Source: Humulus lupulus
Lineage: Eukaryota; Streptophyta; Magnoliopsida; Rosales; Cannabaceae
Assembly (NCBI RefSeq): GCF_963169125.1
Contig: NC_084795.1
Coordinates: 95,166,911 to 95,230,910 of the forward strand
Reading direction: 5' to 3'
Length of the DNA: 64,000 bases
Of this stretch, positions 6,037 to 45,636 are shown piece after piece. The position numbers and the translations under genes were made by a program. How positions within the stretch are numbered: the first letter of the stretch is position 1; every line of letters starts with the position of its first letter. The notes under the pieces are model-generated. The model ran no database searches, was not told the origin of the DNA, and saw only the letters and a program-made list of their open reading frames with translations.

Positions 6037-6039
6037 AGT

Positions 6040-15324: not shown

Positions 15325-15325
15325 G

Positions 15326-15343: not shown

Positions 15344-15391
15344 AACGTTAGTTCCAAGCTACTGTTCTATCATTATTTCTGGCAAGAAGAA

Positions 15392-18830: not shown

Positions 18831-18863
18831 AGACCCTTGCAAAAATAGTACTATGAATAACGA

Positions 18864-18881
18864 CGAGAAGGACGCTTCTCG
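18864..18881 (+). other. Hairpin conserved between elements C and D
   Basis: CGAGAAG-GACG-CTTCTCG forms 7-bp arms around a 4-nt loop. The same hairpin is at 45119-45136 in D, with the same flanks (AATAGTACTATG upstream, AATAAGCGCGC downstream). Confidence 0.7.
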
Positions 18882-19248
18882 CAACAAACAATAAGCGCGC
18901 GCAAGAATATATAAAAGGATAGTTAGGACCCAAGGGGTCAAAATATCCTCATAAGAGTATTCAAGAGGCACCAAAAGAGGTCCCAGTGAACCCTTTCACA
19001 TGGGCTCCAAAGGACCTCCAGCTTGGTAAATAAAAGAGGGGAACCAACCAAACCCCATCATACAGGCTTAAAAGGGCCTCAAATGCAGTAGAATAAGAGA
19101 TAAATAGCAACACATGTATACATACGTTGAAAAAGAAACTTTTGAAGATGGTACAAGAGTTACAAAAGAAAAGTAGTAGTGATAATGGTATTACAGCGTC
19201 AAAAAAAAAAGAGAGAGCGTACACCCATGGTGGGCTAACTAACAAAAG

Positions 19249-19813: not shown

Positions 19814-20042
19814 TGCAAAAATAGACCAAAAGGATGTGTTAGCCTCTACATAGATACCCCAAGAAATTAGCCCATACTTAAAAAAAAAAAAAAAAAAACT
19901 AAGCTAATTTCTTGAAGGGAATATGGGTCTAGATACCCCTAAGCTAAGGAAGTGAGGTGTACATAATGAGCCTTGCATGGGGGCCTATTTATAAGAATCA
20001 AGGAGAATAGTCTACAAGAGCACCTAAAGGTCCTCTCCTAGA

Positions 20043-20054
20043 CTGGGGGGCAAG
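20043..20054 (+). other. Element C polypurine tract
   Basis: CTGGGGGGCAAG immediately precedes the 3' LTR start TGTGAATGC. Element D has CGGGGGGAAG at the equivalent place (45627-45636). Confidence 0.85.
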
Positions 20055-25011: not shown

Positions 25012-25286
25012 CACCACAACAAATTCTACTTTCAATGACTCCCTACAATGTTTTACACCATTGGTGTAAGACATTAAAAATTAGGTGGGGTTTTTAATGT
25101 CTTATGTTGGGAGACATTGAAATTTTTTATTAATGACTAAAATTGGAAGACATTAAAACAGTAAGATGACATTGAAAAATGGGCGTCTAACACGTGTCCA
25201 GGGAGGACATCCAACGTCTCCCACTGGGAGACGTGCCAAGTGTCCCACGTCTCCTAGTGGGAGACGTTAGGAGTGCATGACTTCTG
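25012..25286 (+). mobile_element. Possible truncated CACTA-type transposon terminus
   Basis: It begins CACCACAACAAATT, close to the CACTACAA(C/G)AAA ends of plant CACTA elements. Several short subterminal repeats of AAGACATTAAAA type follow in both orientations. Two near-identical 21-bp palindromes lie 33 bp apart (25214-25234 and 25247-25267; arms ACGTCTCCCA/TGGGAGACGT in the first). It stops abruptly at about 25286, where the truncated LTR of element B starts. No transposase is seen. Confidence 0.4.
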
Positions 25287-27573: not shown

Positions 27574-28760
27574 ATGTCGACCAGAGGAAGAGGAGGAGGC
27601 CGAGGAAAGGGTGTCTCCATAAGATCTAAAGCCACGGCAACTTCTGAAGTAGGAATGCCATCAGTCCAACCTGCAGCTCCAACAGCACCATCTATAGATC
27701 TGGCTGCAGAGGTAGCAAGGTAGAGGGAACCACTAGGGCTGAGAGATGAAGAACTGACATATGCTAGGAAAGTGCTACAAATGCCCCGAGAGCCCCAAAT
27801 GTCCCAAGTGCCTCATGTACTAGTGGCGCAGCCTCAGCCGCCAACACCACCATCTACACCACTACATGTGACTTATGGGTTTGAGCCAGTGTATGAACGT
27901 TTCAAAAAGCAAGCCCTACCAACCTTTGAAGGTAAAGTTGATCCCATGGTAGTGGAGGATTGGTTAAGATCAGTCGAGGCCATCTTCGATCATATGGAGG
28001 TAAATGATCGCCAAAGAATCTCATGTGCAGTCCACTTACTCAAGTTCGATGCACAGATATGGTGGGATGTAATTAAACAGACTCGTGACCTGAATACCAT
28101 GACTTGGGCAGATTTTTCTCAGGCTTTTAGGAAGAAGTATTACAGTGCGGCCGTGTTAGCAATCAAAGTAGATGAGTTCGTGACTTTGGTTCAGGGAAAC
28201 CTGTCTGTCACTAATTATGCACAGAAGTTCTAAAGGTTGGCAAAGTTTGCTCTGCAATTCCAAAGGTTCGTGAGGGGACTCAAGCCTATGATTGACAGGG
28301 ACGTTAAGATGACCAGTGCTAAAGTGATTAGTTATGTCGATGTACTAGATAGGGCACTTGAGGGCGAACACTTGGAGGATCAGATATGGAAGGACAATGT
28401 TACCAGAAGAAAGGCCCACCAAAACAAGGGCATCAATGAGGGTAATACGAGGAGAGCTAATGAAGGGCAGAATAGTGGTACTAACAAGAGATGGAGACCC
28501 CCGACCATGAATAACAACAGTCACAACACTCAGAACCACCCTAACAATCGCAACAGTCACTATAATGATCAAAACCGTGGGAATCACCAAAGCAACAGAG
28601 TAGAACACCCCACCCGTCCTAAATGCTTGAAAAGACACATGGCAGAATGTCAGGATAGCACCAAAAAATGTTTCAAGTGCGGTCAGGCAGGACATCTGCG
28701 AAAAGATTGCCCACAATGGAAAGCGGGACAAAATAGTAACAACAATCTGGTGCCAGCATG
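27574..28760 (+). pseudogene. Element B gag (two in-frame stops)
   Basis: ATG at 27574 opens a frame that stays in register through gag and protease, except for a TAG at 27721 and a TAA at 28231. The N-terminus is Arg/Gly-rich (MSTRGRGGGRGKG). The retrotransposon gag domain spans about 27880-28320: LPTFEGKVDPMVVEDWLRSV, WWDVIKQTRDLNTMTWADFS, FRKKYYSAAV. A basic Asn-rich linker leads to the knuckle CFKCGQAGHLRKDC at 28669-28710. Only point stops disable it. Confidence 0.88.
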
Positions 28761-29300
28761 GGTTTTTGCCTTAACTCAGAATGAAGCAGCCAACAGTAAC
28801 ACCATAGTCACAGGTCAGCTCCCTATTTTTGGTATGATGTGTAGAGTCCTTATTGATTATGGAGCGACTCACTCTTATGTTTCCATGAATATGATTGATA
28901 ATTTGGGTATGCCTTGTAAACTATTTGAGCATAGTTTTAGTACAATGTTACCGTCAGGAGACATGATGTTGTCAACTAGGTGGTTACAGTTAGCACCTAT
29001 AATAATAGAGGGCAGGGAGTGCTTGACAGACCTTATAGAACTAAATATACCAGATTATGATGCCATACTTGGCGTGGATTGGTTATCCAAACATGGAGTG
29101 ACGATTGACTGTCAAAAAAAGACTGTGGAGTTCAAACTAGAAGAAGGAGAAATCTTTTCTATTAAAGGACAAGTAGCAGGTTTTCGTACACCCATAATAT
29201 CGGCACTTGAAGCACGGAATATGGTGCAACATGGTTGTTCGACATTTTTTCTAGCTAGTGTGGTGGATAAATCCAAGGAAATAGAATTAATACCAGAAAA
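28761..29300 (+). pseudogene. Element B protease (DSG to DYG)
   Basis: Same frame as gag. The active site reads LIDYGATHSYVS (28849-28884) where the family has DSGATHS. Asp is kept, but Ser is Tyr at 28858-28860. The C-terminal motif YDAILGVDWLSKHGVTIDCQ is intact near 29060-29115. The Ser of this triad orients the catalytic Asp, so reduced activity is likely but not proven. Confidence 0.82.
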
Positions 29301-30065
29301 CATGCCTATTGTTTGTGAGTTCCCGGAAGTGTTTCTAGAGGAATCGCCACGATTACCCTCGGATAGAGAAATCACATTTGTGATCGAACTTGCACCAGAA
29401 ACAACACTGATCTCTAAAGCACCCAATCGAATGGCACCTACAGAGTTGAAGGAACTCAAGAACCAGCTACAAGAATTGTTGGATAAAGGGTTCATAAGAC
29501 CTAGTACTATTTGTGAAAAAGAAGGACAAAAGCATGAGAATGTGCATCAATTACCGAGAACTCAATAAAGTCACCATTAAGAACAAATATCCTTTGCCTA
29601 GGACAGATGACCTTTTTGATCAACTGCAAGGGGCAGCAGTTTTCTCAAAGATTGATCTACGATCCGAGTACCATCAGTTGAAGGTAAATGAGGGAGACAT
29701 TCCGAAGACGACTTTAAGAGCTCGCTATGGGCACTATGAGTTCCTAGTGATGTCTTTTGGACTCACTAATGCCTCAGTAGCATTCATGGACATGATGAAT
29801 AGGGTATTTAAGGACTATTTGGACAAGTTTGTAGTATTGTTCATTGACGATATCCTTATCTACTCGAAGATCAAGGAGGATCATGAGGAGCATTTGAGGT
29901 TGACCCTAAAAAGACTACGAGAACATCATTTATACACTAAGTTCTCTAAGTGTGAGTTTTGGCTGGAACAAGTAACTTACGTAAGGCATATAGTGTCCAA
30001 GAATGGGATAGTAGTAGATCCGTCCAAGATTGAGGCCATTAGGGACTGGCCCCAGCCAAAGAATG
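29300..30065 (+). pseudogene. Element B reverse transcriptase, interrupted
   Basis: N-terminal RT motifs FVIELAPETTLISKAPNRMA and [13 protein letters not shown], a +1 frameshift at about 29510, then [50 protein letters not shown] and the catalytic FIDD within [12 protein letters not shown] near 29840-29875. The thumb [20 protein letters not shown] ends at [11 protein letters not shown], where the composite element starts at 30066. The continuation ([20 protein letters not shown]) is at 37720. The polymerase core is otherwise well preserved. Confidence 0.9.
30061..30065. repeat. Left target-site duplication of the composite element (GAATG)
   Basis: GAATG before the LTR start TGTGACAG; repeated at 37715-37719. 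Confidence 0.92.
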
Positions 30066-30437
30066 TGTGACAGTCAGAATCCCGTGATCCGTAAGGGGAA
30101 AGACCGGGTAAGCTGTGCAATCCCACATCGCCTGGGGAAGGTCAAGTGTGATGATTCTAAGACTATGTAGGTATGGAACTACACAGTTGAAGAGGGCTTA
30201 AATGGATTGATGGGTACTACCTATATCAACAAGATGTATCTTCTTTTCGGGAGCCCATCACTTGAGAACTCAAAAGTTAAGCGTGCTTGACTTGGGGTAA
30301 TCTATGGATGGGTGACCTCCTGGGAAGTTTTCCTAGGAAGCATGGGAGTGAGGACAAAGCATGTTGAAAAGACTCGTGTTGGATTGTAGGGCTAGTCGTC
30401 ATTCCAGAAAGCAGCCATAGTGACGTGGGGCGTCACA
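30066..30437 (+). repeat. Cassandra-type 5' LTR
   Basis: 372 bp from TGTGACAGTCAG to GGGGCGTCACA. It resembles the 3' LTR at 37349-37714 apart from a small indel near 30100 and scattered substitutions. Confidence 0.88.
30250..30350 (+). other. 5S rRNA-like segment with Pol III internal promoter boxes
   Basis: Contains the 5S A-box region AGTTAAGCGTGCTTG (30275-30289) and the C-box GATGGGTGACCTCCTGGGAA (from 30307) at about the spacing of plant 5S rRNA, preceded by GAGCCCATCA. The segments between the boxes have diverged. The copy in the 3' LTR (37552-37605) has one C-to-T change in the C-box (GACTTCC). This is the Cassandra signature, not a functional 5S gene. Confidence 0.85.
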
Positions 30438-30440
30438 ACT

Positions 30441-30452
30441 TGGTATCAGAGC
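30441..30452 (+). other. Primer binding site after the Cassandra-type 5' LTR
   Basis: TGGTATCAGAGC is a perfect tRNA-iMet PBS. The next bases (GTCCTAGGTTTAAGGG) match the gypsy leader seen in element A rather than the Cassandra interior at 37293. Confidence 0.88.
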
Positions 30453-33400
30453 GTCCTAGGTTTAAGGGTTCCTGGAGATAGGCTGGACATGTACACTAGC
30501 CGCTAAAGACAAGCTCGACTCAGGGTTCTATAATTGGATATATGGGATGGTATGTTTAAGTTTTTGATTGAAATATGAATGTATTATGCTGTATGATCAT
30601 AGGGAGCATGAGAATTGATAGGGCCTGGCCCTTGACAATTGCATGATGAGATAGAGGCGTGCTGATCAGCATTGCTGTTGCATGTGAATGAATATTTGAA
30701 CAATGGTTTGCATATTGATTGCTTGTGGGTGATTACCCAAGCTAAATTTATATGTTATGCTTGTCTATTGATTTATAGGAAGCATGAGAAGGTGTGAATA
30801 AACGTGGCAGCAATAAATTTGGTAGCTAAGTGCATAGAAATGTGAATTAATGCCTATTATGTTCTCTGTGTGTGTGAATATTGTGATTACTTGGACCTGT
30901 ATATGGTTTGGTTCGGAGTGTGAACCTCAGGGTTGAGAAGTTTAGTCAGCAGTGGCAAATGAACTCAGATTATTTGCATCCAGGATGGCTTTGTAGACCT
31001 AGCAAAACCTCCATCTACCCTGAAAGTCGCAGAGATGTTTGTTAGCGTATGACCAATGGTATTTGTCCAGTACAGGGATACAGACTGATAAAGGATATTA
31101 AATGGAAGGCCTAAAAGGCGTTACCTTCTGGTTTGAAGAGGAAGGTTTGGGTTTGCTTACGAACTATTTAGTGGATGGGCAAAGTTAATTCCATTCTTGG
31201 TTATATAAAGGTGAGAGGTTATAACTAAGGGATTGTGCTAAGTACTTGTGGCAAGAGGATGCTAGGAAATGGTATCCAGATTGAGATATTGGCATGATGG
31301 GTTGGAAAGAACTCAAGTGGGGATTCGATAAAAGAAGTTATAAGGACACAGTCTGAGCTGCGGAGATTAATAAATCTATGAGCTTGATTTGAAATGATAA
31401 GACAGCGACAACATGTGTTAGTGAATGTTAGGAGTTGGATGCTTCATTTTGGAATTTATATAAGCAGTGGTAGTTGGGAATAATGACCCATGTAAAGGTT
31501 GAATCCTGGAATGGTCCAGGGTGACAGGGCCGCTCCAATGTTTTAGATTTTCGGTTGCATTTGAGTAGCAGAGAGGACCATTTTATTTGAGATCTGTGGA
31601 ATGAGGCATAGAGCATGAATGCTGCAGGGCAAGGGATGTAGAAGATTGTACTTCTATTGGTAGAATTCAGTAAGGACAGATTCTTGATTATTGAGGTAGG
31701 AGGACCCCAGATAGTGTTTGGGCACCTAGTTTGTGATAGGAAAGGGGTCCGGCTGAAAAGATAGTTGTCAAGATAGTGGCGGGAACCAGGGAGGTTATTT
31801 GGTAAGCATCTAGGGCAAAGGACATTACCTGAGAGGATGTCAGGTGAGGGCACGGCTTCTACATGAAATAATTCGATATGTTAGGATGGATTTCCTATGG
31901 TGAGGGAACGGAGGGCTAGAATGCCCCGTTACATTCAAAGTTCGAGGTTGGTTCCTCGAAGATGAAAATTTAACTGGATAGTCTGTGTTTTGGTCATGTA
32001 ACGAGCTGGAAGAATTCAATGTTGAGAATGTTCCGAGAAAGAGAGTTAGACATAGAGAGTATGCCTCAGGGGTACGATGCGAGAGGCTGGAGAAAGTAGT
32101 ATTTACTAAGGAGGAATTGGAAACTCCTGGCAGAAGATTTGGGATACAAGTAATCAAGAGATTTGTAGTGAGAACAATAGAGCTCGTTGTACGGAAGCTT
32201 CAACATGAGTCAGAGTGAGAGAGTTAATTTGTTAAGAGATAACCATGGATTGTAGGGGATATCACTTGGGAAAAAATATTAGTTTGACTGAGTGGAAACT
32301 AAGCCAACCAGTAGGCATTCAGATGGGTACAAAGAAGGAATGGGTATACTTCAGGACTGGACTATGAACAAGTTTGATATTAGAAACATTATGGAAGATG
32401 GTAATAACTTGACAGGAAGAATTACTTAAGCAGTCGAAGAAGTTTGATCTTGACTCAGATGGAGCATTGTATTGCAGAAATTGTTGGTATCGTCGGTTAA
32501 GAATGAAAAGTTTTAATGTTGGGTACAAGACGGGACAATGTCTCCAGGAATTGATCTATGATCTGGTTATTACCAGCTGGTGATCAAGGAAAGAGACATT
32601 TAAGGAATTACTACTTGTACTGAGTAGGGTGTGAGGAAATTGGTAAAAAGGGCTCTAAATTGATTCAAGCGTCAGCAACATAGGTAAGTTCTTTAAGTAG
32701 AGAATACAAGAATGGTGTGGACAAGTCCCCTTCAAGTTCACGAGCAGTATGTTGGACTACTTCCAGACAGAAGTGGAAAGCGAACGACTATTATGCCGAA
32801 GACGTTAATACCAAGGAAGCAAGGTCACAGGTAAGGTACTATGAAGTGTCAAATTGGGTTCCGCCAGGGATACTCAGAGAAGAGCTACAAGAAGAAGGGA
32901 CAAGTATGAGGAAATTTGATCTGAAGTCACAAAGAAGCTACTGAATAACATCTGAAGAACAGGAAGCACAACGAGACTGGCAAGCATGTCATTTATCACA
33001 TAAGTATCTTCGCAGATAACTACACTAGAGATTTGAGGAACGGTAAAACTTGAAGTTAGACTGAATGGATAGTGTCAAACCAGAGTTCAGAAGACATAGT
33101 AAGAATGGATTAGCATTTGGTGACGCAGGAATATACGTGTTATGGTTGGATATGGAAGAGTAGCATAAAGAAGCGAATTTTTGGTAAAGATATAAAATTG
33201 TGAGGGTATACCACGGGTTGGGTCATGCGCAAGCTCAGACTGACGTAAGGATGGATTAAGCCTCGCGGGAGGTAAAAGAATGGGAACATAGTCGATACAC
33301 ATGGAATGTTGAATTGACAGTTTATGCATAGTGTAAGGTACTTGAGTGTTTGGTCATTAGTAAGAAAGATGATTTTGAGACTAAAATTTGATGGAACGCA

Positions 33401-34789
33401 GTAGACGGCTGGTTGATGTTAGAAGTCCTCGACTGTATGAGGAGGGGATTTAATTAGAGGCGGATCTCTTATCTGAAAGGTACGTGTTAGTCAAAAGAAC
33501 GCCACAGATTACAATGGAATGGGCAAGGTAACGATTGTGATGGGTAAAGTAATAGTGTGTGGTGGTGATCATATACGTTTTCTTTGGGATAATGGAATCC
33601 AGAGTGATGATTCTGTGGAAACGGGGAAGAACCCTATGGGTATAATACAATATAAGGTTCAAGGACTGGATGAATGGTCCACATAGAATTTGTTGTGGAG
33701 ATGGGAACTATAAGTGGATGTCGTTTCATCTCCTAGGGTTTGTTGTACCGGGAGGTTTTAGCTGACGGTAGAATCTGGGATACACGAATAATGAAAGGTA
33801 AAATGATATGATGGTTGGCCATAGGAATGGACCACATTAGACTGTAAATAAGGAGATTGAACAGGGAAGAAGTTGTAACTCAGCTGAACGAGATGGCATA
33901 ATTTGGTTTGTTTATCTAGCAATGAAGTAAAGCATTGATAATGTTAAATTGAGACCCTATAACTTTCTGAGTTTTGGAAAGGGACCAGAGAACGAAGAAA
34001 ATAGAGTGGGAATCTAGAATTACTGATTAATTGTAGATAAGATAGGAACCTGAGGGCTTAACAATTATGTTAAGGGATTAGGCATTGAATGTGCAACATT
34101 TGGGATATCAAGGGAAGTGTATTCTTTGATATGACAGTCACGGTATTGGATGCTGGAGTATAACTAAAGTGACAGGGCATAGGACCTGGTAAGATAAAAG
34201 TAAAGAATTGGAAGTTAGTGGATACTGCGATTCAGTTTTGCTTCAGAGAACAACCAAAGAGGGTGTTGGAACTCTTAAGGCATGGATGTCTGCCTATCTG
34301 AAAGTATACGGGAACCTATAAACTGTTAACTTTAGAGTACGGGGTTCCAAGATGAGAGATTTATGTCTCTCCAAGTTAGACATGGAGAAATAGTATGATA
34401 GTTGGAAAAGAAAGGGGAGTCTTAACTCCCGATTCGACAAGAGTTTCAGGGTCGTAACGAAGGTTTGGCCGAGGGCCTATAAGCTGACTCACCCTGATAA
34501 GGGTGATGGTTCATAAGTATTTCTGGCAGCGAGAACAAATCAATGAAGAGATCGTTGGGAACTAACAGACACTGGAATTACAACGGATCTGGTGTGCAAG
34601 TAAAAGTTAAAGGAAGTACAGATATCAGTCAAGATCTTATGAAACGATATGGTTACTCAAGTTTGAGTATTATCGAAGATTAAGAGTAAAGGCATTGGAC
34701 CTTGGGAATTGTCGTCAAAGGTATGAGGTTTACCGTCTGATGTGTTCAAGTAAATTTCGAGGACGAAATTATTATAAGGAGGGGATAGT
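30453..34789 (+). other. LARD-like interior: long, no recognisable gag-pol
   Basis: 4.3 kb. The first 90 bp match element A's leader (GTACACT, GACAAG, TCGACTCAGGGTT). The end has the usual gypsy 3' motif AATTTCGAGGACGAAATT and a purine tract AAGGAGGGGATAG at 34776-34788. In between, no frame longer than about 140 codons and no gag, protease, RT or integrase motif was recognised on either strand. This fits a large retrotransposon derivative that depends on enzymes from other elements. Confidence 0.65.
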
Positions 34790-37276
34790 TGTAACGACCC
34801 AAAATTACTATTAAGGCTTGAGGGCCTTGATTAGTGTGCCGGGAGGGCATAATTGGTGGTTAAGAGAATTAATCATAAGAAAGTATGAATATGGATTTTG
34901 GATAAGTATGTGGGCCTCGTTTGGCTGGTAAGGGCATAATTGTTATTTTGGCCCGTTAGGGCATAAACGTGATTGTGTGTGATAAAATTGTTGAGACCAC
35001 ATTATTATGTGGATAGGTGGATATATATATACGCATATATGTGTGTTTGTAGCTTTCGGCACGAGGCGATCCTAGAGCTTGATAGCGGGAAAAGTCACAA
35101 AGGGGTTTAACAGTTGACTTTGGACAGGTCAGGGGTGTTTTTGGTGTCGGGTAGTTATTTAGACTATCAGGTTATGAAAATAAATATATGGAGATATATT
35201 TGAGATTAGGATGTCTAGGTGGGAATACTGGTGGATTTTACCATTTTTGCCTCGGGGACATTTTTGGCACCCTGAGCCTTGAGGTAACCTTAAAGCTTAA
35301 GTTAATAAAAAAAAACAAAGGAATTATTTAGAAACTTAGAGAAACCGACTTAGTCTCAGCCTTCCCTCTTGTCTTCTTCTTTTTCTCTTTCTCTCAAGAA
35401 GAACTACAGAAAATTAAGGGGAATTGATTGGAATTCAGAGAATTTGAAGCTATAATCTAGGAGCTTAACTCAAGGATTAGCTGAGGATTTCTAACAAGAG
35501 TAAAGGTAAGCTATAAGTTTGTTCATGATGGTTAAATTCTGTGATTATGCTGGGTTTTGAAGAGATTGTGGATTTTGACATTTAAGGGTTGAATTGAGGC
35601 TTGGAGCTTGGGAGTTAGCTCAGTTTTACTTGGGGGATTGATTTTGCAGCAAAGGTGAGTTTGAAATTAAAGTGTTTAATGTTTGAATCTCTGAGATTTT
35701 CTGACTGGTTTTGAAGTTCTTGGGTGTGAGAGTTTCATAAATTAAAATGATGTGTTGAGGGGTTTTTAGCCTAGATTTCTGCTGGGTTTTACTGTTGGAA
35801 GCATGCTAGAGTGTTGGGATAATTGAGTTGTGTTGTGGGGATTGTTTAAAATGGGTTTGGATGAGGTTTTGGATGTTAGAAATGGGGGAAATTCTGGGTT
35901 CGAAGGGAAGGGTCGCGGCTCTGTTCTAGAGCGCTACGGCCCTAGGATGAAGATGAGCCAGGAGGGCTCGGCCAAGGGGGAGCTCCGCGGCGCCCAAGGC
36001 AAGGGCAGCGACACGTGTCTTCTTTCAGGGAGGGCCTTGGCTCTGTTTTGAAGGCAGGGCTGCGGCTAAGCTTTAGGGGCCGCAACCCTTAGATGCATAC
36101 TTGAACGTTCAAGGTTTTTAAGTACGGGGATCGAGCCTAGGGTGCTTGGGATCAATCTCACCACCGTGCTTGGTGGGATTCGACTTCCCGGAAACTAGTT
36201 TTGTACATGAAAACCTATATGTGAATATTAATGGAATCCATTATCTTGGTTGTGACTAGGTGATAAGCTAGGGCTCGGGAATGGATTGTGCTCGGGGGTA
36301 ATCCTTTCTAAATAAAGCACTTGGAATCAAGGTAAGAAAACTGCACCTGTGTAGGTGGATAGGATGGGACTATGTGTTCCCTATATTTGAATGTATTGTT
36401 ATGTGAATATGTTGGGACTAAGAGTTCCCTATAATTGTATAAATGTCATGAGGTGGTATTATGCCACGGGGAAAAGAGATAAGCGGCCTAAGGGTGCCGA
36501 AATCAATATTTGCGCACATGGCACAGCTCGGACACTGGTATCTGAGGACAGCTTATTAATCACTGAGCTCAGTTAAGCTGGCCGGAGTCAGTGGGTATGT
36601 CACTGGGCTTGGCCTAAGTGAGCCAAAGGCAATGAATTAAATAGAGGGTGCAGCCTGTGGGCATTAACCCTAGTTATTGCTTGACATGTGTCTACTGTGG
36701 ATTATTGTCTGTGGTTTGATAAGTGAGATGGAGCTGAATTATTGGTTAATCACGAGTGTGCGGCCTTGAATGTATTTTATAGCTTGATGGAACTGATTAT
36801 TGCTTTGTGGTTATTGGATTATGATCTGCGAACTGTTTAGTTGCTATTATTATTATGTTATGATATTGTGTATTTTCGCTGGGCTTCGGCTCACGGATGC
36901 TACATGGTGCAGTTAAGGCAAGTTTACCATGGGTTGGAGAGCTCTGGGGGCGAGGTGTACATCGTCAGCTGCTCGGCCACCACGGTCAAGGATTTGCTCA
37001 GGGACAGGGACCTAAAACGTATATTTTTCCATTAGAGTGGCTGGGTTACTTATTTATGATTAAGAATTTTGTATTTACGTCATTTAAACCCTGATTTGGG
37101 ATCCCATGTATTAAACATCTGTTTTTAATAAAATTTAATTGTTTATGACCAAAATTATTTTTAACCTAATCTATTTGTGTCGTTAGAAACACATTTCGAG
37201 TCAAATGACTTGATTAGCAAGTCTTGCACTATTTCAAACACACAGTGTAGCGGTCTTGGTTATCCAGGGCGTTACA
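34790..37276 (+). repeat. LTR of the LARD-like gypsy unit
   Basis: 2487 bp from TGTAACGACCC to GGGCGTTACA, related to element A's LTR (TGTAGTGTCCC start, GGGCGTTACA end, a GC-rich CGCGGC block at about 35910-36090). It is preceded by a PPT and followed directly by a PBS-like site, so both borders are true LTR borders. It is the only copy of this LTR in the composite. Confidence 0.8.
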
Positions 37277-37348
37277 AAATGGTATAAGAGCCTTGACCCA
37301 GCCAGAAGTGTGGCCGACGGGGACGTCGGACCCGTAAGGGGGGGTGAT
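37277..37348 (+). other. Cassandra-type interior with PBS-like site and polypurine tract
   Basis: A PBS-like TGGTATAAGAGCC is at about 37280. About 45 bp of interior follows (GACCCAGCCAGAAGTGTGG, GACGGGGACGTC), then the tract AAGGGGGGGTGAT (37336-37348) adjoining the 3' LTR. This is the compact PBS-interior-PPT arrangement expected of a complete Cassandra element. Confidence 0.75.
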
Positions 37349-37714
37349 TGTGACAGTTAGAATCTCGTGATCCGTAAAGACCGGGTAAGCTGTGCAATCC
37401 CACACTGCCTGGGGAAGGTCAAGTGTGATGATTCTAAGACTGTGTAGGTATGGGACTACACAATTGAAGAGGGCTTAAATGGATTGATGGGTACTACCTA
37501 TATCAACAAGATGCATCTTCTTTTCGGGAGCCCATCACTTGAGAACTCCAAAGTTAAGCGTGCTTGACCTGGGGTAATCTAGGGATGGGTGACTTCCTGG
37601 GAAGTTTTCCTAGGAAGCATGGGAGTGAGGACAAAGCATGCTGAAAAGACTCGTGTTGGTTTGTAGGGCCAGTCGTCATTCCAGAAAGCAGCCATAGTGA
37701 CGTGGGGCGTCACA
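37349..37714 (+). repeat. Cassandra-type 3' LTR
   Basis: 366 bp, TGTGACAGTTAG to GGGGCGTCACA, with the 5S-like boxes at about 37552-37605. GAATG follows at 37715-37719. Confidence 0.88.
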
Positions 37715-38745
37715 GAATGCCTCAGAGGTTCGAAGCTTCTTAGGATTGACAGGTTGTTATAGGAAGTTTGTTGAGGGTTTCTCAAAGATCGCCACCCCTT
37801 TGACCAATTTGACCCTCAAACATCAGAAGTTTGCATGGACCAAGAAATGTGAAGAAAGCTTTTAGACCATGAAGGATAAGTTGATTTCTATGCCTATCCT
37901 TTGTGTTCCCACAGAGAGCAAGAATTTTGTGGTGTATTGTGACGCATCAAAGAATGATTTAGGGTATGTGTTGATGTAGGATGGGAAGGTGGTAGCTTAT
38001 GCTTCCAGACAACTCAAGGACTATGAGCAACGATACCCCACTCATGACCTTGAGTTGGCAGTAGTGGTGTTCACGCTAAAGATATGGAGACATCACCTAT
38101 ATGGGGACAAGTGCAGATCTACAGTGAACACAAAAGTTTGAAATAATTCTTTACCCAGAAGGAGCCGAATATGAGGCTGCGAAGGTGGTGGGAATTAGTG
38201 AAAGACTACGATTGTGAAATTCTATACAACCAAGGCAAGGCCAATGTGGTTGCAGATGCATTAAGTAGGTGGGGAGATGGGAGTGTCTCAGCACTGAATG
38301 CAATAGAGATGCCTCTACAGAAGGAGATAATAAACATTGGCATTGAGTTCGTGATAGGAGGCCTAGCGAACCTAACATTACAATCCTCCCTACTGGAACA
38401 AATTAGTGAAGGACAAAAAGTGGATGAAGCCCTAATGAAGCATGAGGCTTTTGTACAAGAAAGTGGTAGCAGTGACTTCACGATGTCCAACGGTGGATTG
38501 CTACGATATAAGGATAGGATTTGTGTGCCTGACAATGATGAGATTAAGGAAATTATTATGAAAGAGGCACATACAACACCCTATTCCTTACACCCAGGGT
38601 CCACGAAGATGTACCAAGACCTTAAGGTGTTGTATTGGTGGCCTGCAATGAAGAGGGATATTGCTATGTTTTTTGCCATATGCTTGACATGCCAGCAAGT
38701 TAAAGCAGAACACCAAAGGTCAGCGGGTTACTTCAACAACTTTAC
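37715..38745 (+). pseudogene. Element B RNase H and integrase zinc domain
   Basis: Continues element B's pol after the composite. The RT connection [20 protein letters not shown] leads to RNase H near 37930-38110 ([57 protein letters not shown]). A frameshift near 38140 precedes CEILYNQGKANVVADALSRW. The integrase zinc-binding part follows at 38560-38720 (HTTPYSLHPGSTKM ... CLTCQQVKAEHQRS). Stops occur near 37862 and 37975. The frame is cut by element D at 38746. Confidence 0.88.
38741..38745. repeat. Left target-site duplication of element D (TTTAC)
   Basis: TTTAC precedes the LTR start TGTAAATG and recurs at 46873-46877. Confidence 0.93.
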
Positions 38746-39958
38746 TGTAAATGTGGAAAATTTTCCTTTGTGAATTTTATTTCACCAGTGAAGCTCTATG
38801 CTACGAGGTATCCTACATGCTACTTGATGCACGTAAAAGGGGACGAGGATATCACACGGCGTTGAAGGAGTTGGGCTAAGAGAGCCACCCTCAGTATGCG
38901 AGGGCCCTTCACCACCCGCCAAACCAAACGCCACCCTCGCTATGCGAGAGTCCTCGGATGGCCATCAGCGTACGCCTTGACCCCTCAGGCATCGGACCTC
39001 ACCTCGCCTGCACGCGGGAGAAAAAGACCAGCCTCGCTACACGAGGCACCCTCGCTATGCGAGGGTGTGGCCTTGTCGCGGCGCCCATACCCCGAGCCAT
39101 GGCCACATCCGAGGGAAGAAGGCCAGCCTCGCTACGCGAGGAACCCTCGCTATGCGAGGGTGTGGCCTTGTCGCGGCACCCGCACCCCGAGCCACGCCTA
39201 CACCCGAGGGAAGAGGGCCAGCCTCGCTACGAGAGGAACCCTCGCTACGCAAGGGTATGGCTTTGTTGCGGGGCCCATGCTGCGAGCCTCGTGTCCATGT
39301 GACCGGCATAAGCCGGCCCCGACCCCTGGCACCTTGACTTCTCAGAACACGCATAGGTTGAAGCCTCCTTGACATAGGCGCGGGATCACTTGGAGGAACC
39401 TTTATGATATGCCAAACGAACATGGAGCATTGAACAGGGATCGATGAGGACGACCGAGTACGGAACACATGCGCTGACACGGGGCGTACGGTTATGGAAT
39501 GAACAGGGCACGACCCTATGATCTGCATCTGAGGAGTAGTGGCGGTACGGACTTGTACGAAGAGTAGTGGTACCACTTGGACACCCCCGACCATACGCCA
39601 GAGCCGACAGTACTATATCCTAGGCCACGACTCTGACACCATCAGGGTAGACACGACTATGCCCTGAACCACTACACTATCAGAGTACCTGTGTACGTCC
39701 CTGTGGTCTGGCACTTGTTTGTATCCAGGGTCAATAGAGCCCCCCCCCCCCCCTATAAATAGGCTCCAACCCCTCAGGCTAAGGGGTTGGAAAACTGAAT
39801 GTATGAAAGAGACTTAAGAAATATATGTTTCTGGTTTTCATTGTGGCCTGAGTTTCCTTCTGTTAATTAGAGTTCTTCCTATCTAATTCAAAGTTTTCTA
39901 TAGTATAGAGATTAAAGTTTTCTAACCATCAATCGTAGACGGGTTCTTACTGTCAACA
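38746..39958 (+). repeat. Element D 5' LTR
   Basis: 1213 bp from TGTAAATGTGG to GTCAACA. It has GC-rich hairpin repeats at about 38875-39260, a run of 14 C at 39740-39753 directly followed by the TATA box TATAAATAG (39754-39762), and about 200 bp of downstream R/U5-like sequence. Confidence 0.93.
38875..39260 (+). repeat. Dispersed hairpin motif (CTCGCTACGCGAGG) in element D 5' LTR
   Basis: The self-complementary motif CCTCGCTAYGCGAGG and variants recurs repeatedly, with spacers such as GTGTGGCCTTGTCGCGGC. Each copy can fold on itself (CTCGC/GCGAG arms). The 3' LTR (45775-46170) has a different number and order of copies, including three consecutive CTCGCTACGCGAGGCACC units. Confidence 0.85.
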
Positions 39959-39960
39959 GT

Positions 39961-39978
39961 TTGGCGCCGTCTGTGGGA
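39961..39978 (+). other. Element D primer binding site
   Basis: TTGGCGCCGTCTGTGGGA, two bases after the LTR, identical to that of element C. TGGCGCCGT suggests tRNA-Asp-type priming (inferred). Confidence 0.7.
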
Positions 39979-40025
39979 ACGTAAGCACCAAGCTACTATT
40001 CTTCCATTACTTCCGGCAAGGAGAA

Positions 40026-40868
40026 ATGCCAAGACGTTCGAAGCGACTCAGGGAGCCTCGAGAGGTGGAGGTCCACCTTACCGGAGTCCAGCTGAAGGCC
40101 TCCATGAAGGATCCACCTCCACCCCGAGATGTAGAGCCCCCAAGGAACCCTGAGGTTCACGATAATGACAGGGAGGCCTCGTCACCGGCCATCCCGCCCG
40201 GTGAGAATCCTCCAAGGACAACTACTGTACCACCCAGGAATGCCAACGAGTTCCCTCCTCCCAAACCACCACAGGTACCGAACTCCGGCCGGTAAGACCC
40301 AGGCCCCTCGATGCGTAGACATGATAAGCAACCCCGGGTCCATTCCGTGAGCTCAAGTTCTAAGTCTCGCTTCTATGAAGAGTAGATTCGTGAGCTGCAC
40401 CGTAAAAACCAAAGACTGGAGACTACCTTGCAGAACATGCAAGAGGTGTTGAATGGCCTGTTGCAAAGTATGTCAAATGTGACTCTGCCCAAGAGGAAAG
40501 AGAAGGGTCGGGAAACCACGGTCCCAGTAGACAACGGGAGGACCAGACACTCCACCAGTAACACCCCCAGGAGAGAAAGGCCGAAGTTGGAGGATGAGCC
40601 AGTGATATCTAAGGCGCAAAGAGATGCTCCAGAGATCCGGGGAGAAGTGAGAACTATTTTCGGAGGTCCGGGTTTTGGAGGGGACTCCCGCAGAGGACGA
40701 GATCGGTATGCTAGAGAAGTCAAGCGAAGTCCGCCACCCTGTGTCATGAGTTTGGAACAACGACCCCCGAAAAGCTTCAAGGGAGAAAACGATTCAATCA
40801 CCTTCACTGAGGAGGACACACGGGGGGTACACTTTCCCCACAATGATCCGCTGGTGTTGACAGTTTAA
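40026..40868 (+). pseudogene. Element D gag remnant with the capsid domain deleted
   Basis: Starts MPRRSKRLREPREVEVHLTG, collinear with element C's gag at 15392. It includes the Pro-rich region and the coiled segment IRELHRKNQRLETTLQNMQE. After TRHSTSNTP it jumps straight to the pre-protease linker EIRGEVRTIFGGPGFGGDSR. Relative to C, about 1.3 kb holding the retrotransposon gag domain and knuckle is gone, but the frame is kept. Stops at 40293, 40383 and 40866. This element could not make a capsid on its own. Confidence 0.85.
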
Positions 40869-41345
40869 CTGGCAAATATGCGTGTGCATCGAGTCCTAGT
40901 GGACAACGGGAGCTTGGTGGACATCCTATATCGCCCTGCTTTGGAAAAGATGGGGCTGGGCATTCGTCATCTGAAGCCCTGCCAGTCGTCCATATACGGA
41001 TTCACAGGGGACTCAGTACAACCCCTTGGAATGATCGAGTTGACACTTACCATGGGGGAGCGACCCCGGCAGACCACAGTCATGCCTAACTTTGTTGTAG
41101 TAGATTGTGCATCAGCTTTCAACGCGGTATTGGGGAGACCCTCCCTGAGAGAATTGAAAGCCATAACTTCAATATATCACTTGGTTGTCAAGTTCCCGAC
41201 TCCAGGAGGGGTCGCTAGTATGAAGGGAGAACAGAAAGAGGCAAGGGAATGCTACAACACCTCACTCCGTGCGCCTGTGAAACCGCGTGAGCCAATGGCC
41301 ATGGTGGTACACGAGGCGCTACGTATGCCCACGGGGGGTCCGTAG
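40869..41345 (+). pseudogene. Element D protease
   Basis: The aspartic-protease core LVDNGSLVDILYRPALEKMG (about 40896-40960) keeps the D-N-G triad, unlike element C. IYGFTGDSVQPLG and FVVVDCASAFNAVLGRPSLR follow. It ends at a TAG at 41343, after which the same frame continues into RT. Apart from flanking stops it looks intact. Confidence 0.85.
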
Positions 41346-42320
41346 GAACTGGACCCTCGGGTCATGGATGAGTCAAGAGCAGAACCAGTAGAAGAAGTAG
41401 AGGAGGTTACGGTGACGGAGGAACCCCTAAGGAAATTGAAGATAGGGAGGAACCTACAAGGTGATGTGAAGGAGGAGCTGATGAAATTTTTGAAAAATAA
41501 TCTAGACGTGTTCGCATGGAGTCATGAGGATATGGTGGGTATAGACCCCAGTGTGATGTGCCACCACCTGAACATCTCCCCAGAAGCAAGGCCCGTCAGG
41601 CAAAAGAGGCGGGCGCTAGACCCAACAAGATACACAGCATTAAAGGAGGAGGTTGACAAGTTGAAGGCCAACGGGTTCATCTGTGAGTCTTTCTACCCCG
41701 TGTGGGTATCGAACCCAGTACTCGTGCCGAAGACGAATGGGTAATGGAGAACTTGCGTCGATTTCACGAACTTGAATAAAGCTTGCCCTAAGGACAGCTT
41801 CCCACTTCCCAGGATAGATCAGCTAGTAGATGCGACGGCAGGACATGAGTTACTGAGTTTCATGGACGCCTACTCAGGATACAACCAAATCCCAATGAAT
41901 CCAGCAGATGAAGAGCACACGTCATTCATTACAGACAAAGGGCTCTACTGTTACAAGGTGATGCCCTTCAGGCTCAAAAACGCGGGAGCCACCTATCAGA
42001 GGTTGGTGAATAAAATGTTCGCCAACCAGATATGAAGGAATATGGAGGTGTATGTGGATGACATGCTAGTGAAGACCAAAGAAGCAGCAGAGCTCAACAA
42101 AGACCTTGGTGAGATGTTTGACACGCTCAGGAAATACCGGATGAAGTTGAATCCAGTCAAGTGCACCTTTGGGGTATCCTCAGGAAAATTCTTGGGCTTC
42201 ATGGTCAATTCCAGAGGTATAGAAGCCAATCCTGATAAGATAAAGGCACTAATAGAGATGAGCTCGCCAAAGAATAAGAAGGAGGTGCAGTGCCTAACGG
42301 GAAGGGTGGCGGCCCTTAAT
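41346..42320 (+). pseudogene. Element D reverse transcriptase (two in-frame stops)
   Basis: RT entry motifs NLDVFAWSHEDMVGIDPSVM and QKRRALDPTRYTALKEEVDK, then (after TAA 41742) CVDFTNLNKACPKDSFPLPR, FMDAYSGYNQIPM and CYKVMPFRLKNAGATYQRLV. After TGA 42033 comes the catalytic YVDD within MEVYVDDMLVKTK. The thumb CTFGVSSGKFLGFMVNSRGI follows. All catalytic aspartates are present. Confidence 0.9.
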
Positions 42321-42767
42321 AGGTTTATCTCGAGGTCCACCGACAAGTGTCTCCCATTCTTTGACATCCTCAAAGGGAGCAAAAAGTTCGCTTGGGATGA
42401 AAGATGTGAGGAAGCATTTGTCAAGCTGAAAGAGCACCTGGGGAAGCCACCCCTGTTGGCAAAGCCAGAGAAGGGCGAGAATCTGTACCTGTACTTAGCG
42501 GTGTCTGAGCATGCCATCAGCGCAGCCTTGGTTAAGGGAGAGAAGAAGCAGCAGCAACTCGTATACTACATCAGCAAGCGTTTGGTGGACTCGGAGAACC
42601 GGTATCCAGAGATCGAAAAATTGGCCTATGTACTAGTGGTGGCTTCGAGGAAGTTGAGGCCTTACTTCCACGCACATACAATTGAGGTCCTAACAGATAA
42701 TCCATTGAGGCAGGTCTTACATAAGCCTGAGACTTCGGGGAGACTAATGAAATGGTCATCGAGCTAA
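42320..42767 (+). pseudogene. Element D first (Ty3-type) RNase H, degenerate
   Basis: Continues the RT frame: FAWDERCEEAFVKLKEHLG, then LYLYLAVSEHAISAALV, where Ty3-type RNase H has a catalytic Asp that is not seen here; then YYISKRLVDSENRYPEIEKL and EVLTDNPLRQVLHKPETSGR. Loss of catalytic residues in this domain with gain of a second RNase H is known for Tat. A frameshift near 42750 ends the frame. Confidence 0.8.
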
Positions 42768-43330
42768 GTCAATTTGATATTGTATACACTCCAAGGGCTT
42801 CCATCAATGGACATGTGCTGGCAGATTTTATAGTAGAATTCACCCATCAGCCGAATAAAGGAAGGAATGAAGAAGGGGAGCAGCCTGTTATGAAGGAAGA
42901 GCTAGGAGGTTTGGAGGAGTGGAGTTTGCATGTTGACGGGGCGTCAAATGAAGGAGAATCAGGGGCGGGCATCATGATGACTGGGCCCGAGGGACACAGA
43001 ATGTATTGCGCAATCCGATTTGGGTTTGAGGCCTCCAATAATGAGGCAGAGTACGAGGCGCTCCTAGCTGGCCTGCGTTTGGCCCAGGAACTAAGAGTGA
43101 CGCGCCTTCATATCTTTAGTGACTCTCAATTGGTAGTATGCCAAGTAAAGGGGGAGTACCAGGCAAGGGGACCCAAGATGGCAGCCTACTTGGAGAAGGT
43201 GAAGGGCTATCTAGGACAGTTGGTGGCATATAATATAGAGCAAATCCCCAGAGAAAAGAATACCCATACCGATGCACTCGCAAAGCTGGCATCTACCAAG
43301 GATGGTGATATCCTGGAGTCAATACCCATG
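42752..43330 (+). pseudogene. Element D second, archaeal-type RNase H (aRNH)
   Basis: Starts IELSQFDIVYTPRASINGHV. The catalytic set is complete: Asp in LHVDGASNEGESGAG, Glu in ASNNEAEYEALLAGL, Asp in FSDSQLVVCQVKGEY and Asp in THTDALAKLAS. This is the plant/archaeal RNase HI form acquired by Tat elements and would degrade the RNA template during cDNA synthesis. The domain itself has no stops. Confidence 0.88.
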
Positions 43331-44632
43331 GAATACTTACCCAAGCCCAGCATCGAAGGCGCGGACGTGCACATGATTGGTGTCCCAAGGGAATCATGGA
43401 CCGAGCCAATCAAGAGGTACCTGGAAGAAGGAACCTTGCCTACAGATAAAAACGAGTCCCGGAGGTTGGTGTACAAGGCCGCAAGATACACCCTGGTAGA
43501 TGGGGTCCTTTACAAAAGAGGATTCTCAATGCCACTCCTGCGGTGTGTGGAAGAGGAGGAGGCGTTGAAAGTGTTGCATGAGATACATGAGGAAGAGTGT
43601 GGCAACCACGAGAGCGGACCCTCCACGACTAGGAAGGCCATGAGACAAGGATACTACTGGCCCTCCATGGAGAAAGATGTGCATGACTTTGCCATGAAAT
43701 GCGACAAATTCCAGAGGCACGCCAACTACCCTCGGAAACCCCCAAGCGAACTGACTAGCATGACCAGCCCCTGGCCCTTCGCTATCTAGGGGATAGACTT
43801 AATCGGTGCTCTTCGTACAGGCAGGGGTGGAGCGAAGTACGCAGTGGTGGCAGTGGACTATTTCACTAAGTGGGTAGAGGCAGAACCCCTTGTGAAGATA
43901 ACCGCCAAGCACATCACCTCTTTCGTCAACAAGTTCATTGTTTGTAGATATGGAATACCCTACAAGAGTATTTCCAACAATGGTACCCAGTTCAAGGGAG
44001 GAGCTTTCGATGAATATTGTAGGGAAAGGGGCATAAGGAGGAGTTTCTCCGCGGCTGTACACCCCCAGGCCAATGGGCAAGTGGAGGCCATAAACAGGGT
44101 CCTTAAGAAGAACCTGAAGACAAAGCTAGAAAAGATGAAGGGAGCCTGGGTGGATGAGCTACCAAATGTGTTGTGGGCTTATAGAACCACCCCACGCACG
44201 ACTACTGGGGAGTCCCCATTCTCCTTGGCCTATGGGTGCGAGGCCGTGCTCCCAATCGAGATGCAAGTCGAGTCCCACAGGGTACAGGCATATGGAGACG
44301 AAGCCAACCGCGTGGCCCTGACCGAAAGCTTAGACATGCTCGAAGAGAAGAGAGAAAAAGCACAAATGAGGGGGGCAGTATACCAGCAGCGTGCCGTAAG
44401 GTACTACAATTCGAGGGTGCGAGAGAGAACTTTCAGAGTTGGCGACCTGGTGCTAATGAAGGTACTCCCTATCACGCAAGACCCAGGCGCAGGAGTGCTG
44501 GGGGCGAATTGGGAAGGGCCCTACCAGGTGGCTCAGTGCATACCCCCGAACACTTACAAGCTGGCGCGCATGGACGACACCATCATACCCCGAGCATGGA
44601 ATGCGGAGCACCTGAGGAAGTACTACCAATAA
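43331..44632 (+). pseudogene. Element D integrase (Cys to Phe and Asp to Asn)
   Basis: The zinc-binding region has the His pair (ECGNHESG near 43600) but reads CDKFQRHA at 43700-43720, where the family has CDKCQRHA; Phe codon TTC at 43709-43711. A TAG at 43787 replaces the Trp codon in PWPFAI-GIDLIG. The core has the first Asp in VAVDYFTKWVEAEP, but the second motif is ISNNGTQF instead of SDNGTQF (AAC at 43976-43978). The Glu in ANGQVEAINRVLKK is kept. The C-terminal part runs to 44632 (NWEGPYQVAQ, EHLRKYYQ). Integrase activity is almost certainly lost. Confidence 0.9.
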
Positions 44633-45636
44633 GACTTCCACTCCCAGCACATGCAGTAGCTGTGTTTAGTTTGTCGCAGGATAGGCTATCTCAGTAGACG
44701 AGAATCAAAGAGGTTACCTACATAACCCCCAAGTAGATGTAAGCCTTCTATATGCATGTCGTTGTAATCTGACTTCTATAAATGAAAATGTTCACAACTT
44801 CACATGTGATTTTTTCTTTTTCATGCGAGCATCAACCGAACTGCCTGCTGAATTAAATCTCACCAAGCACTTAGGGGGCAGGACAGGAGGCATGAGCAAA
44901 AAAAAAAAATCTCTCTTATATTCAAAAGGAGTAGCTACCCTTATGAATATCAAGGGAGCAGTTTAAAAGGATGACCTCCAACGAAAGGCCGACACCCCAA
45001 AAGGTGAGGCTGTAAGGAGGGAATCACCCGATAAGTCTAGATCGGCCATTAAGCCGGCTAGCCCAAAAAGGGTCTTACAAGGGACCCTTGGAAAAAAAAA
45101 TAGTACTATGTATAAGGACGAGAAGGACGCTTCTCGTAAAAAAGTAATAAGCGCGCACAATGAATATAAAAGGACCTCAATAGCCCAACGGGTTAATGTG
45201 TCCTTACAAGTATAATCAAGGTGCACCGGAAAGGTTATCGTCATCAGATCAAAAAAAAAAAAAGGAAGAAAGGGCACCTCAAGAATGCTTTGGAGGAGGA
45301 TAGAACCCTTGAACTCGCGAAAATAAGTTGGAGAGCATGCCACTTGGCTAGGCAAGTCTTGGTGTGGACAAGTGGCTTCGAACCTTGGGATCCGCGATTG
45401 AGGATGATTAGTCCTTATGCAGCCTTAGGAACTTTCATGGATCCCCCAAGTGTTAGGTGGCTGTCGTGTTCCTTTAGACACTAAACACAAAACCAAACCT
45501 CACCTCGTACTTCTTCGAGCGACGTTGAAAAATTTCCAAGGCTAAGTCCCCCAAGGGTGGCCGTACCTGTCAAGCAAGAGAAATAGAGAGAGTCTACAAG
45601 CACACTCAAAAGTATACTTATAGACTCGGGGGGAAG
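44633..45636 (+). other. Element D 3' noncoding region, hairpin and polypurine tract
   Basis: About 1 kb between integrase and the 3' LTR. Shares blocks with element C: GAATCAAAGAGGTTACCTA (44702), CACCAAGCACTTAGGGGGCA (about 44861), the CGGCC/GGCTAGCC block (45040) and the hairpin CGAGAAG-CTTCTCG (45119-45136). No counterpart of C's antisense coiled-coil ORF is seen. The PPT is CGGGGGGAAG at 45627-45636. Confidence 0.75.

Follow-up and report, generated by a model that had tools for sequence, protein, structure and literature searches.

Cassandra elements lack coding capacity and measure 563-968 b (PMC10853983); they are found across many plants, ferns among them, and the available part of PMC7215508 calls their copying helper unknown. 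Several described systems resemble the locus reported here, in which a Cassandra of hop (Humulus lupulus) encloses part of a gypsy element. For the template-switching complexes of Sabot and Schulman (2007, PMC1950507), the authors foresaw the fusion of different co-packaged RNAs. As in these complexes, three LTRs, two interiors, similar outer LTRs and a 5-base duplication around the whole are found here; an inner LTR, two interiors, a flanking duplication and similar outer LTRs are also found at the hop loci L009, L011, L012, L016, L018, L074 and L075. In their model, related RNAs are joined through R, yielding chimeric LTRs, whereas here Cassandra and gypsy are joined between LTR end and primer-binding site (PBS), with many partners, and the LTRs of our locus, L009, L011 and L012 are complete and of one type.

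LTRs and interiors also alternate in the tandem LTR-retrotransposons of rice and other plants, where 10 of 28 clear cases have perfect 5-base duplications and Tekay gypsies are enriched (Morales-Diaz et al. 2025, PMC11899658). In the available part of that report the repeats are of similar units, and a fusion of a TRIM with a gypsy is not described. Cassandra LTRs and interiors are likewise repeated in Cassandra tandem arrays, for which template switching was proposed as one origin (Kalendar et al. 2020, PMC7215508); as far as that text was available, the arrays contain Cassandra units only, and the word gypsy is absent from its main text. RLG_Cereba and RLG_Quinta, an autonomous/non-autonomous pair, were matched to each other on the basis of identical PBS and LTR ends (PMC11302176), and the Cassandra and gypsies studied here similarly have a common PBS and the LTR end GGGCGTYACA; a physical fusion of the pair is not described in the portion available. 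Finally, the gypsy part has a long non-coding interior, like LARDs as defined in the available text of PMC4668562, but it has one LTR instead of two and sits within a Cassandra, and the corresponding unit of L074 is coding. A literature search by title returned nothing on Cassandra-gypsy fusions, which is not proof of their absence in print.

Layout of the composite

The window is a 64,000-nt stretch of hop DNA, in which the locus 30066-37714 is a complete Cassandra split at its LTR/PBS boundary by one gypsy unit consisting of PBS, interior, PPT and LTR (plus strand throughout, unless stated). The Cassandra-type 5′ LTR (TGTGACAG...GGCGTCACA, 30066-30437, 372 b) meets, at the left joint (30438-30452), the gypsy spacer ACT and PBS TGGTATCAGAGC. 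These open a non-coding gypsy interior of the LARD type with a PPT at its end (30438-34789), followed by a single gypsy LTR of 2,487 b (TGTAACGACC...GGGCGTTACA, 34790-37276). The right joint leads, through the spacer AAA and a PBS with one mismatch, into the whole Cassandra interior (37277-37348, 72 b, with PPT AAGGGGGGGTGAT) and then the Cassandra-type 3′ LTR (37349-37714, 366 b). Perfect copies of the target duplication GAATG lie at 30061-30065 and 37715-37719. The preliminary description had read the locus as such a composite, and its Cassandra LTRs, perfect duplication, gypsy unit without a 5′ LTR and two joints were all confirmed.

The composite interrupts a host gypsy whose left part (28234-30060) holds zinc knuckle, protease and RT. 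In the right part (37720-38745, as far as nested element A) the pol frame resumes, with two stops, and there is an integrase zinc domain; once the composite is removed, the pol frame runs on across the empty site. Element A is also nested in this host gypsy. A related gypsy on the minus strand (1-8500, outer limit approximate), with protease, integrase zinc and SH3_Tf2-1 domains, provided a native reference and contains an uninterrupted LTR-end/ACT/PBS at 6025-6049. L078 is a native gypsy from the inner unit's group, and in it the gypsy sides of the two window joints are contiguous, with the spacer ACT.

On its sequence features, namely a 5S-like promoter region, a methionine PBS with a PPT, and a small non-coding size, the outer element is a member of the Cassandra lineage. 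It measures 810 b without the gypsy unit (372+72+366), within the published size range, and 7,649 b with it, outside that range. The outer LTRs are 94.4% identical, with 15 substitutions in 363-366 sites (K2P 0.042-0.043). The A-box and C-box of 5S noticed in them were recovered: the two motifs published for Cassandra, box A and box C, taken from the available part of PMC7215508, occur in both LTRs (one mismatch in the left, none in the right), compared with 0 matches in 100 mononucleotide shuffles searched on one strand. When searched alone, the left LTR matched Rfam 5S_rRNA at 30234-30344, the stretch with both boxes, at 21.9 bits and E 0.031, below the gathering score of 38. When Rfam was run on the entire window at E 1, 5S was not listed, and the sole listing was mir-547, matched weakly at a palindrome. 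The methionine PBS matches at 12 of 12 positions on the gypsy side and at 11 of 12 on the Cassandra side.

As for the inner unit, no Pfam domain was found at E 0.01 in ten peptides from a subset of the open frames (nine interior, one LTR), and by blastn its interior resembles the related coding gypsy of the window at the ends only; the term LARD therefore fits. The LTR, PBS, PPT and long non-coding interior of a Ty3/gypsy LARD are all present, with a single LTR at the locus. A trace of a gypsy 5′ LTR or a second target duplication, together with joints confined to this locus, had been named beforehand as evidence for a simple nested insertion with a later deletion, and neither trace nor duplication was found in the window: there is no second gypsy LTR start in 30000-37800 at a tolerance of 5 mismatches in 18, and the 5 bases flanking the gypsy unit differ between its sides. 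The locus thus has neither the inner duplication nor the two inner LTRs of a simple nested insertion.

The joints lie exactly at the LTR-end/PBS boundary, as had been described, and the reading of recombination at the LTR-end/PBS sequence that the two families share also holds. One correction concerns the Cassandra-side primer site, TGGTATAAGAGC, which carries one mismatch. The LTR-end/PBS motif occurs three times in the window, with none expected. The sequence shared at the joints amounts to only 25 bases with 4 differences, and both breakpoints fall within the same four shared bases, ACAA.

Joints across the hop genome

Exact patterns identified 35 joints from Cassandra LTR to gypsy interior in the hop genome and 15 + 18 from gypsy LTR to Cassandra interior, against 528 and 1321 native joints; reversed-pattern controls gave 0. 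All 35, all 15 and two of the 18 were inspected individually; all of these hold, and every one of the 35 and the 15 (35/35 and 15/15) lies at the LTR-end/PBS boundary. Viral contigs (two patterns) and contigs of prokaryotic genomes (one pattern) gave 0 matches. The gypsy partners belong to many groups. Clustering placed 45 of 50 joints in 8 clusters at 80% identity and 25 at 90%, and spacers vary within one cluster (e.g., TAA in L013, ACT in L014).

Both permutations are found as complete composites. Gypsy lies inside Cassandra, between perfect duplications and complete outer LTRs, in the window (GAATG), L009 (CCTCC), L011 (TCAGC) and L012 (GCGCT), and the gypsy parts of these four are 64-78% alike in aligned pieces. 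The expectation that the same joints would recur elsewhere with other duplications was borne out for the architecture, with other gypsies in L009, L011 and L012, but not for this very composite. Among 40 scored places for each joint, the other left joint closest to that of the window is 91% identical and belongs to a different gypsy (L009), and the closest other right joint is 93% identical, with a gypsy LTR 78% identical (L030). L009-L036 were picked by similarity to the window's joints.

Cassandra lies inside gypsy, again between perfect duplications, in L016 (CTATT), L018 (TCAAG), L074 (GTTGC) and L075 (CTAAC). L074 and L075 are two 9.7-kb copies, with different duplications, of one gypsy that carries a Cassandra and has a long gag-pol frame. 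Their K2P distance is 0.025 for the Cassandra unit and 0.033 for the gypsy interior, and this similar divergence indicates that the two parts were inherited together. As for the proposal that Cassandra could mobilise foreign cargo, copying as a unit is seen in the opposite arrangement alone, where the gypsy carries Cassandra.

Some loci are less complete. In the short forms L022 and L020, the Cassandra edge is kept at the PBS and joined to internal gypsy sites which, judged in related gypsies, have ~8 bases in common with that edge; the duplication matches at 4 of 5 bases in L022 and is not perfect in L020. At L013, L014, L015, L023 and L027 the left joint is present, and neither a second Cassandra LTR at the expected position nor a matching duplication accompanies it. 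A one-ended form, with a Cassandra LTR at one end and a gypsy LTR at the other, was considered for L014 and L015 and did not hold up, the 5 bases being different between the two ends.

Probable template switching and its alternatives

The locus is probably a heterodimeric LTR retrotransposon produced by a recurrent process, template switching during reverse transcription of co-packaged RNAs. Cassandra RNA and gypsy RNA would be copied within one particle. Reverse transcriptase would copy the Cassandra interior up to the PBS, where the template ends, and the nascent strand, ending in primer-site sequence, would resume on the primer site of the gypsy RNA or on a primer-site-like 8-mer. The gypsy LTR and interior would then be copied back to the gypsy primer site, where Cassandra plus-strand strong-stop DNA would pair, allowing both outer LTRs to be completed. 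A single element with the structure LTR_C-int_G-LTR_G-int_C-LTR_C, or its gypsy-outside permutation, would then integrate. The shared particle, the order of the jumps and the run-off at the primer site are inferred. The PBS-edge joints of L020 and L022 to ~8-mers favour template switching, because they are expected from a run-off strand but not from a homologous DNA crossover. In its simplest version, with the spacer staying with the upstream LTR at both joints, the model fits 5 of 14 composites; in the window and L012 the spacer origin is opposite to this prediction at both joints. ACT stands at the left joint in all four gypsy-in-Cassandra composites inspected in full. The five loci with a left joint and no second Cassandra LTR, and the imperfect duplications of L020 and L022, also weigh against the model.

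A DNA crossover at the shared LTR-end/PBS, between a one-LTR gypsy circle or a gypsy tandem and a Cassandra copy, integrated or not, would also account for the window, and its reverse would place Cassandra inside gypsy; this route predicts both permutations. The available part of PMC11899658 discusses recombination among the origins of homotypic tandems, which are a known form. For the window's two breakpoints, both in ACAA as a single crossover with a one-LTR circle would leave them, this explanation fits better than the simplest switch model. Spacer origin agrees between the two joints in 7 of 14 composites, but a single crossover makes the joints alike and in the other 7 they differ; only ~25 bases are shared, and L020 and L022 join the Cassandra PBS edge to internal gypsy sites through ~8 matching bases. 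A single circle crossover as the general rule, initially favoured for the coinciding breakpoints of the window, was dropped on the 7 discordant composites, L020 and L022, and we regard crossover as a rather unlikely origin overall.

Nesting does occur here, as element A in the same host gypsy illustrates, and deletion of a 5′ LTR through ~10 shared bases is plausible. A complete gypsy inserted into Cassandra and then trimmed via the shared LTR-end sequence is nevertheless extremely improbable: a second gypsy LTR start and a second duplication are missing from the window, and insertion exactly at the LTR/PBS boundary would have to be repeated with different gypsies, and in reverse for Cassandra in gypsy. 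Recurrence makes this route unlikely as a general cause. Part of the census likely consists of copies, since all 40 scored places (of 2,234 candidates) match the L074 joint at 90-100%, as one or a few ancestral fusions would predict if their copies diverged and gained other gypsy parts by later recombination. That there were so few true fusion events is very unlikely, given both permutations, the differing spacers inside one cluster and the number of clusters. In addition, the start of the gypsy interior in L011 resembles three native gypsies at 94-96%, and the L011 gypsy part resembles those of the window and L009 at only 68-78% in aligned pieces. Among the three mechanisms offered in the preliminary description, template switching is favoured, circle crossover is unlikely as a general rule and insertion with deletion is disfavoured as a general cause.

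Cassandra and its gypsy partners

Repeated fusion of Cassandra and gypsy at one precise spot, together with unit copying, suggests a common copying machinery. Recurrent fusions in both permutations, with gypsies sharing PBS and LTR ends, hint at the group to which the helper belongs and open co-packaging to experimental test. Their joints would also document sites at which reverse transcriptase may naturally switch from one RNA to an unrelated one, and the fusions show that an autonomous-type element can take up a TRIM and be copied with it. It is possible, and we propose it tentatively, that hop has a lineage of autonomous-type gypsies (L074, L075 and perhaps tens more) in which a whole Cassandra unit, complete with its 5S/Pol III-type promoter and an additional primer site, lies between LTR and gag and has been copied along to recent times. 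The gypsy may gain from it an additional unit for transcription or priming, or Cassandra may use the gypsy as a vehicle. If such a lineage exists, Tekay-like gypsies would be Cassandra's helper.

A Cassandra element split by a gypsy unit

The element at 30066-37714 is built as the preliminary description had proposed: Cassandra LTRs (30066-30437 and 37349-37714) flank a gypsy unit with one LTR, the 5′ LTR being absent, and both joints lie at the boundary between LTR end and PBS. The Cassandra LTRs are 94.4% identical (K2P 0.042-0.043), which would represent about 1.6-3.1 million years under two assumed substitution rates. GAATG borders the composite at both ends, and the protein frame of the gypsy that carries it reads through across the empty site (14 residues spanning), with two stops further downstream. 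Boxes A and C were found in both Cassandra LTRs; the Rfam 5S model matched this Cassandra weakly, below its gathering score, and the 5S-like stretch was not among the matches of the Rfam scan of the whole window. The remaining Cassandra interior (37277-37348) comprises 72 b including PBS and PPT, and Cassandra minus the insert measures 810 b, within the published range of 563-968 b (PMC10853983). The 6,839-b insert separating the left Cassandra LTR from this interior contains, in order, gypsy spacer (the 2-3 bases between LTR end and PBS) and PBS, interior, PPT, and a 2,487-b LTR. Recognised domains were found in none of ten peptides from the gypsy part, nine of them from its interior.

The native state can be read from other gypsies. 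L078, a native gypsy of the same group, carries LTR end (90%), ACT, and interior (88-93%) contiguously; in the composite, these two sides stand 6.8 kb apart, each fused to Cassandra. L079, a second native gypsy, has only the ends in common with it. A related minus-strand gypsy in the window also has its LTR end directly joined to the PBS (...GGGCGTTACA-ACT-TGGTAT...); it matches 68 of 90 letters past the left joint and 23 of 72 past the right joint, where the sequence departs from it. This relative is little informative for the 40 letters preceding the joints (24/40 and 20/40).

The window holds two ordinary LTR elements, both with LTRs 92% alike: element A (38746-46872; TSD TTTAC), nested in the same host gypsy, with LTR ends (GTCAACA) and PBS differing from those of the composite, and element B (14235-21151; TSD TTGTC), with short tandem repeats within its LTRs. 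A palindrome at 25211-25270 weakly matches mir-547 (25.6 bits; gathering score 90).

Mixed joints and composites across the genome

Similarity searches of a 2.478-Gb genome, taken as hop, returned 4,065 candidates for the left joint (Cassandra LTR end to gypsy) and 3,067 for the right (gypsy LTR end to Cassandra). Among the best 40 of each, the left joint is covered on both sides at 37 places, one of them the window, and on the gypsy side only at the other three; the right joint is spanned in 40/40. The other 39 left-joint places were read over 10 kb in 20 cases, and some of the remaining 19 over 300 b. Within these scored lists, the window composite appears to be single copy. Exact patterns located 528 native Cassandra joints, 1321 native gypsy joints, 35 places leading from Cassandra LTR to gypsy interior, and 15 and 18 leading into Cassandra interior from gypsy LTRs ending TCCA... 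and TAGTA..., respectively; reversed-pattern controls gave no match for any of the five. Because only one base after the PBS separates them from native Cassandra joints, all 35 were read: gypsy interior follows in 28/28 newly fetched, the other seven being already established. The TCCA... class holds in 15/15 (six newly fetched, nine already established), and the TAGTA... class was read in L074 and L075. About 6% (35/563) of exact Cassandra LTR-end/PBS sites thus lead into gypsy. Among the matches listed by similarity and by exact pattern, one mixed joint occurs at no fewer than 86 separate places and the other at no fewer than 62; exact patterns undercount such joints. Within these lists, both joints occur in eight elements with Cassandra in gypsy and in eight with gypsy in Cassandra or in tandem. 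The 35 joints lie 8 forward and 27 reverse (binomial p 0.002; native joints 257 and 271), an imbalance for which chance or the search tool may be responsible. Native Cassandra joints 443-444 b apart (C1:277613290-277614206 in G000, the searched genome, and others) form homotypic tandem arrays.

Other loci with like joints and different target duplications, sought as the preliminary description had suggested, were found. Gypsy-in-Cassandra composites L009 (CCTCC), L011 (TCAGC) and L012 (GCGCT), picked by similarity to the window's two joints, have outer LTR K2P values of 0.008, 0.028 and 0.019, against 0.042 in the window (GAATG); no other fetched stretch contained two Cassandra LTRs and a gypsy LTR in the proper order. 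Their gypsy parts are 64-78% alike over aligned pieces of 1.5-6.2 kb, and L022 contains a native gypsy that is 87-94% identical to the gypsy part of L011. Five loci (L013, L014, L015, L023, L027) have the left joint, and neither a clear right end nor a matching duplication was found in them. The reverse permutation, Cassandra in gypsy, was checked for duplications in five loci: it is bordered by CTATT in L016, TCAAG in L018, GTTGC in L074 (first LTR base A for T) and CTAAC in L075, and no duplication was found in L021 (LTR divergence 11-12%). L010, L017, L019, L024, L025, L026 and L034 are also placed in this group. Over 1,400 b, the gypsy LTRs at ten joints show 52-82% identity, some pairs reaching 89-94% in the last 215 b, and the gypsy interiors at 45 of 50 mixed joints compared form 8, 18 and 25 clusters at 80%, 85% and 90% identity.

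Further arrangements were seen. L010 (1-6647) is a three-unit array of gypsy LTR, Cassandra unit and gypsy unit, followed by another gypsy interior; L028 (298-1677) is a short composite of Cassandra LTR, ~0.5 kb of gypsy interior and partial Cassandra LTR with a perfect TSD (ACGGG); and in L014 (280-310) a gypsy-like LTR end plus ACT abuts a Cassandra LTR, without Cassandra interior in between.

Spacers and the origin of the composites

The native spacer differs between the two families. It is ACT in 3/3 fetched native gypsy loci, and ACT or one-base variants, never TAA, in about 100 listed of the 1321; it is AA or TAA in 3/3 fetched native Cassandra loci, with ACT absent from about 100 listed of the 528. 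Mixed joints carry either: 13 ACT, 10 TAA, 10 AA and 2 other from Cassandra LTR to gypsy (n=35); 11 ACT, 1 ACA, 2 TAA and 1 AA from TCCA... LTRs to Cassandra (n=15); and 15 ACT, 1 AAA and 2 AA from TAGTA... LTRs (n=18). A single crossover predicts that spacer origin agrees at both joints of every composite. Among 14 composites with both joints seen, it follows the LTR at both in five and the interior at both in two (the window and L012), but is mixed in seven; the LTR group gains two more with L074 and L075, which belong to a single lineage. Two independent jumps would not require agreement.

Shorter forms bear on the same question. In L022 and L020, a Cassandra LTR is followed by a short piece of gypsy interior (0.65 or 0.8 kb) and then by Cassandra interior from its own spacer/PBS edge; the duplication is 4/5 in L022 and absent in L020. 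On the gypsy side of the joint, related copies bear primer-site-like letters: the gypsy interior of the window composite has GACCAATGGTATTTG where L022 has GAGCAAATGGTATCAG, and L015 has AACAATGGATGAG where L020 has AACAATGGTATCAG. A nascent strand ending at the Cassandra primer site would switch to such letters. Together, spacer discordance and the short forms favor template switching during reverse transcription, which is probably the best explanation of the composites from their sequences, although it does not account for the ACT left spacer in 4/4 fully read composites with gypsy in Cassandra. Template switching is known to give complex insertions (PMC1950507), and tandem LTR elements (PMC11899658) and Cassandra arrays (PMC7215508) have been described; our literature search, whose coverage took in the central Cassandra and recombination papers only partly, found no account of Cassandra-gypsy heterodimers.

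A composite lineage and a candidate helper

L074 and L075 share one architecture: gypsy LTR, ACT, Cassandra interior, Cassandra LTR, TAA/TAT, gypsy interior, gypsy LTR. They are 93.9% identical over 9.7 kb, with outer LTR K2P of 0.0055 and 0.0013 within each copy; between them, K2P is 0.025 for the Cassandra units, 0.033 for the interiors and 0.10 for the LTRs. This composite, with its gypsy LTRs outside, has been copied as one unit. With outer LTRs 10% apart and an interior and Cassandra unit ~3% apart, the pair forms a mosaic, perhaps from LTR exchange. The Cassandra-to-gypsy joint of L074 matches at 90-100% in 40/40 scored (best 40 of 2,234 candidates). By coordinates, five of the 18 TAGTA... 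places are followed by a listed Cassandra-to-gypsy joint at 442-454 b downstream, the layout of L074; for three, such a joint lies ~7.1-7.2 kb upstream, the predicted reverse arrangement or tandem.

A single 1453-aa frame in L074 carries gag, protease, RT, RNase H, integrase and SH3_Tf2-1 domains, and L075 has one frame of 1528 aa, counted from the first ATG. From the SH3_Tf2-1 domain and the LTR ends, we take the partner gypsies to be putatively Tekay-like. Equal PBS and LTR ends are listed among the criteria for an autonomous/non-autonomous pair (PMC11302176). Cassandra and the partner gypsies have both in common; elements A and B have PBS and LTR ends that are not those of Cassandra. These shared ends point indirectly to the partner gypsies as a candidate helper of Cassandra.
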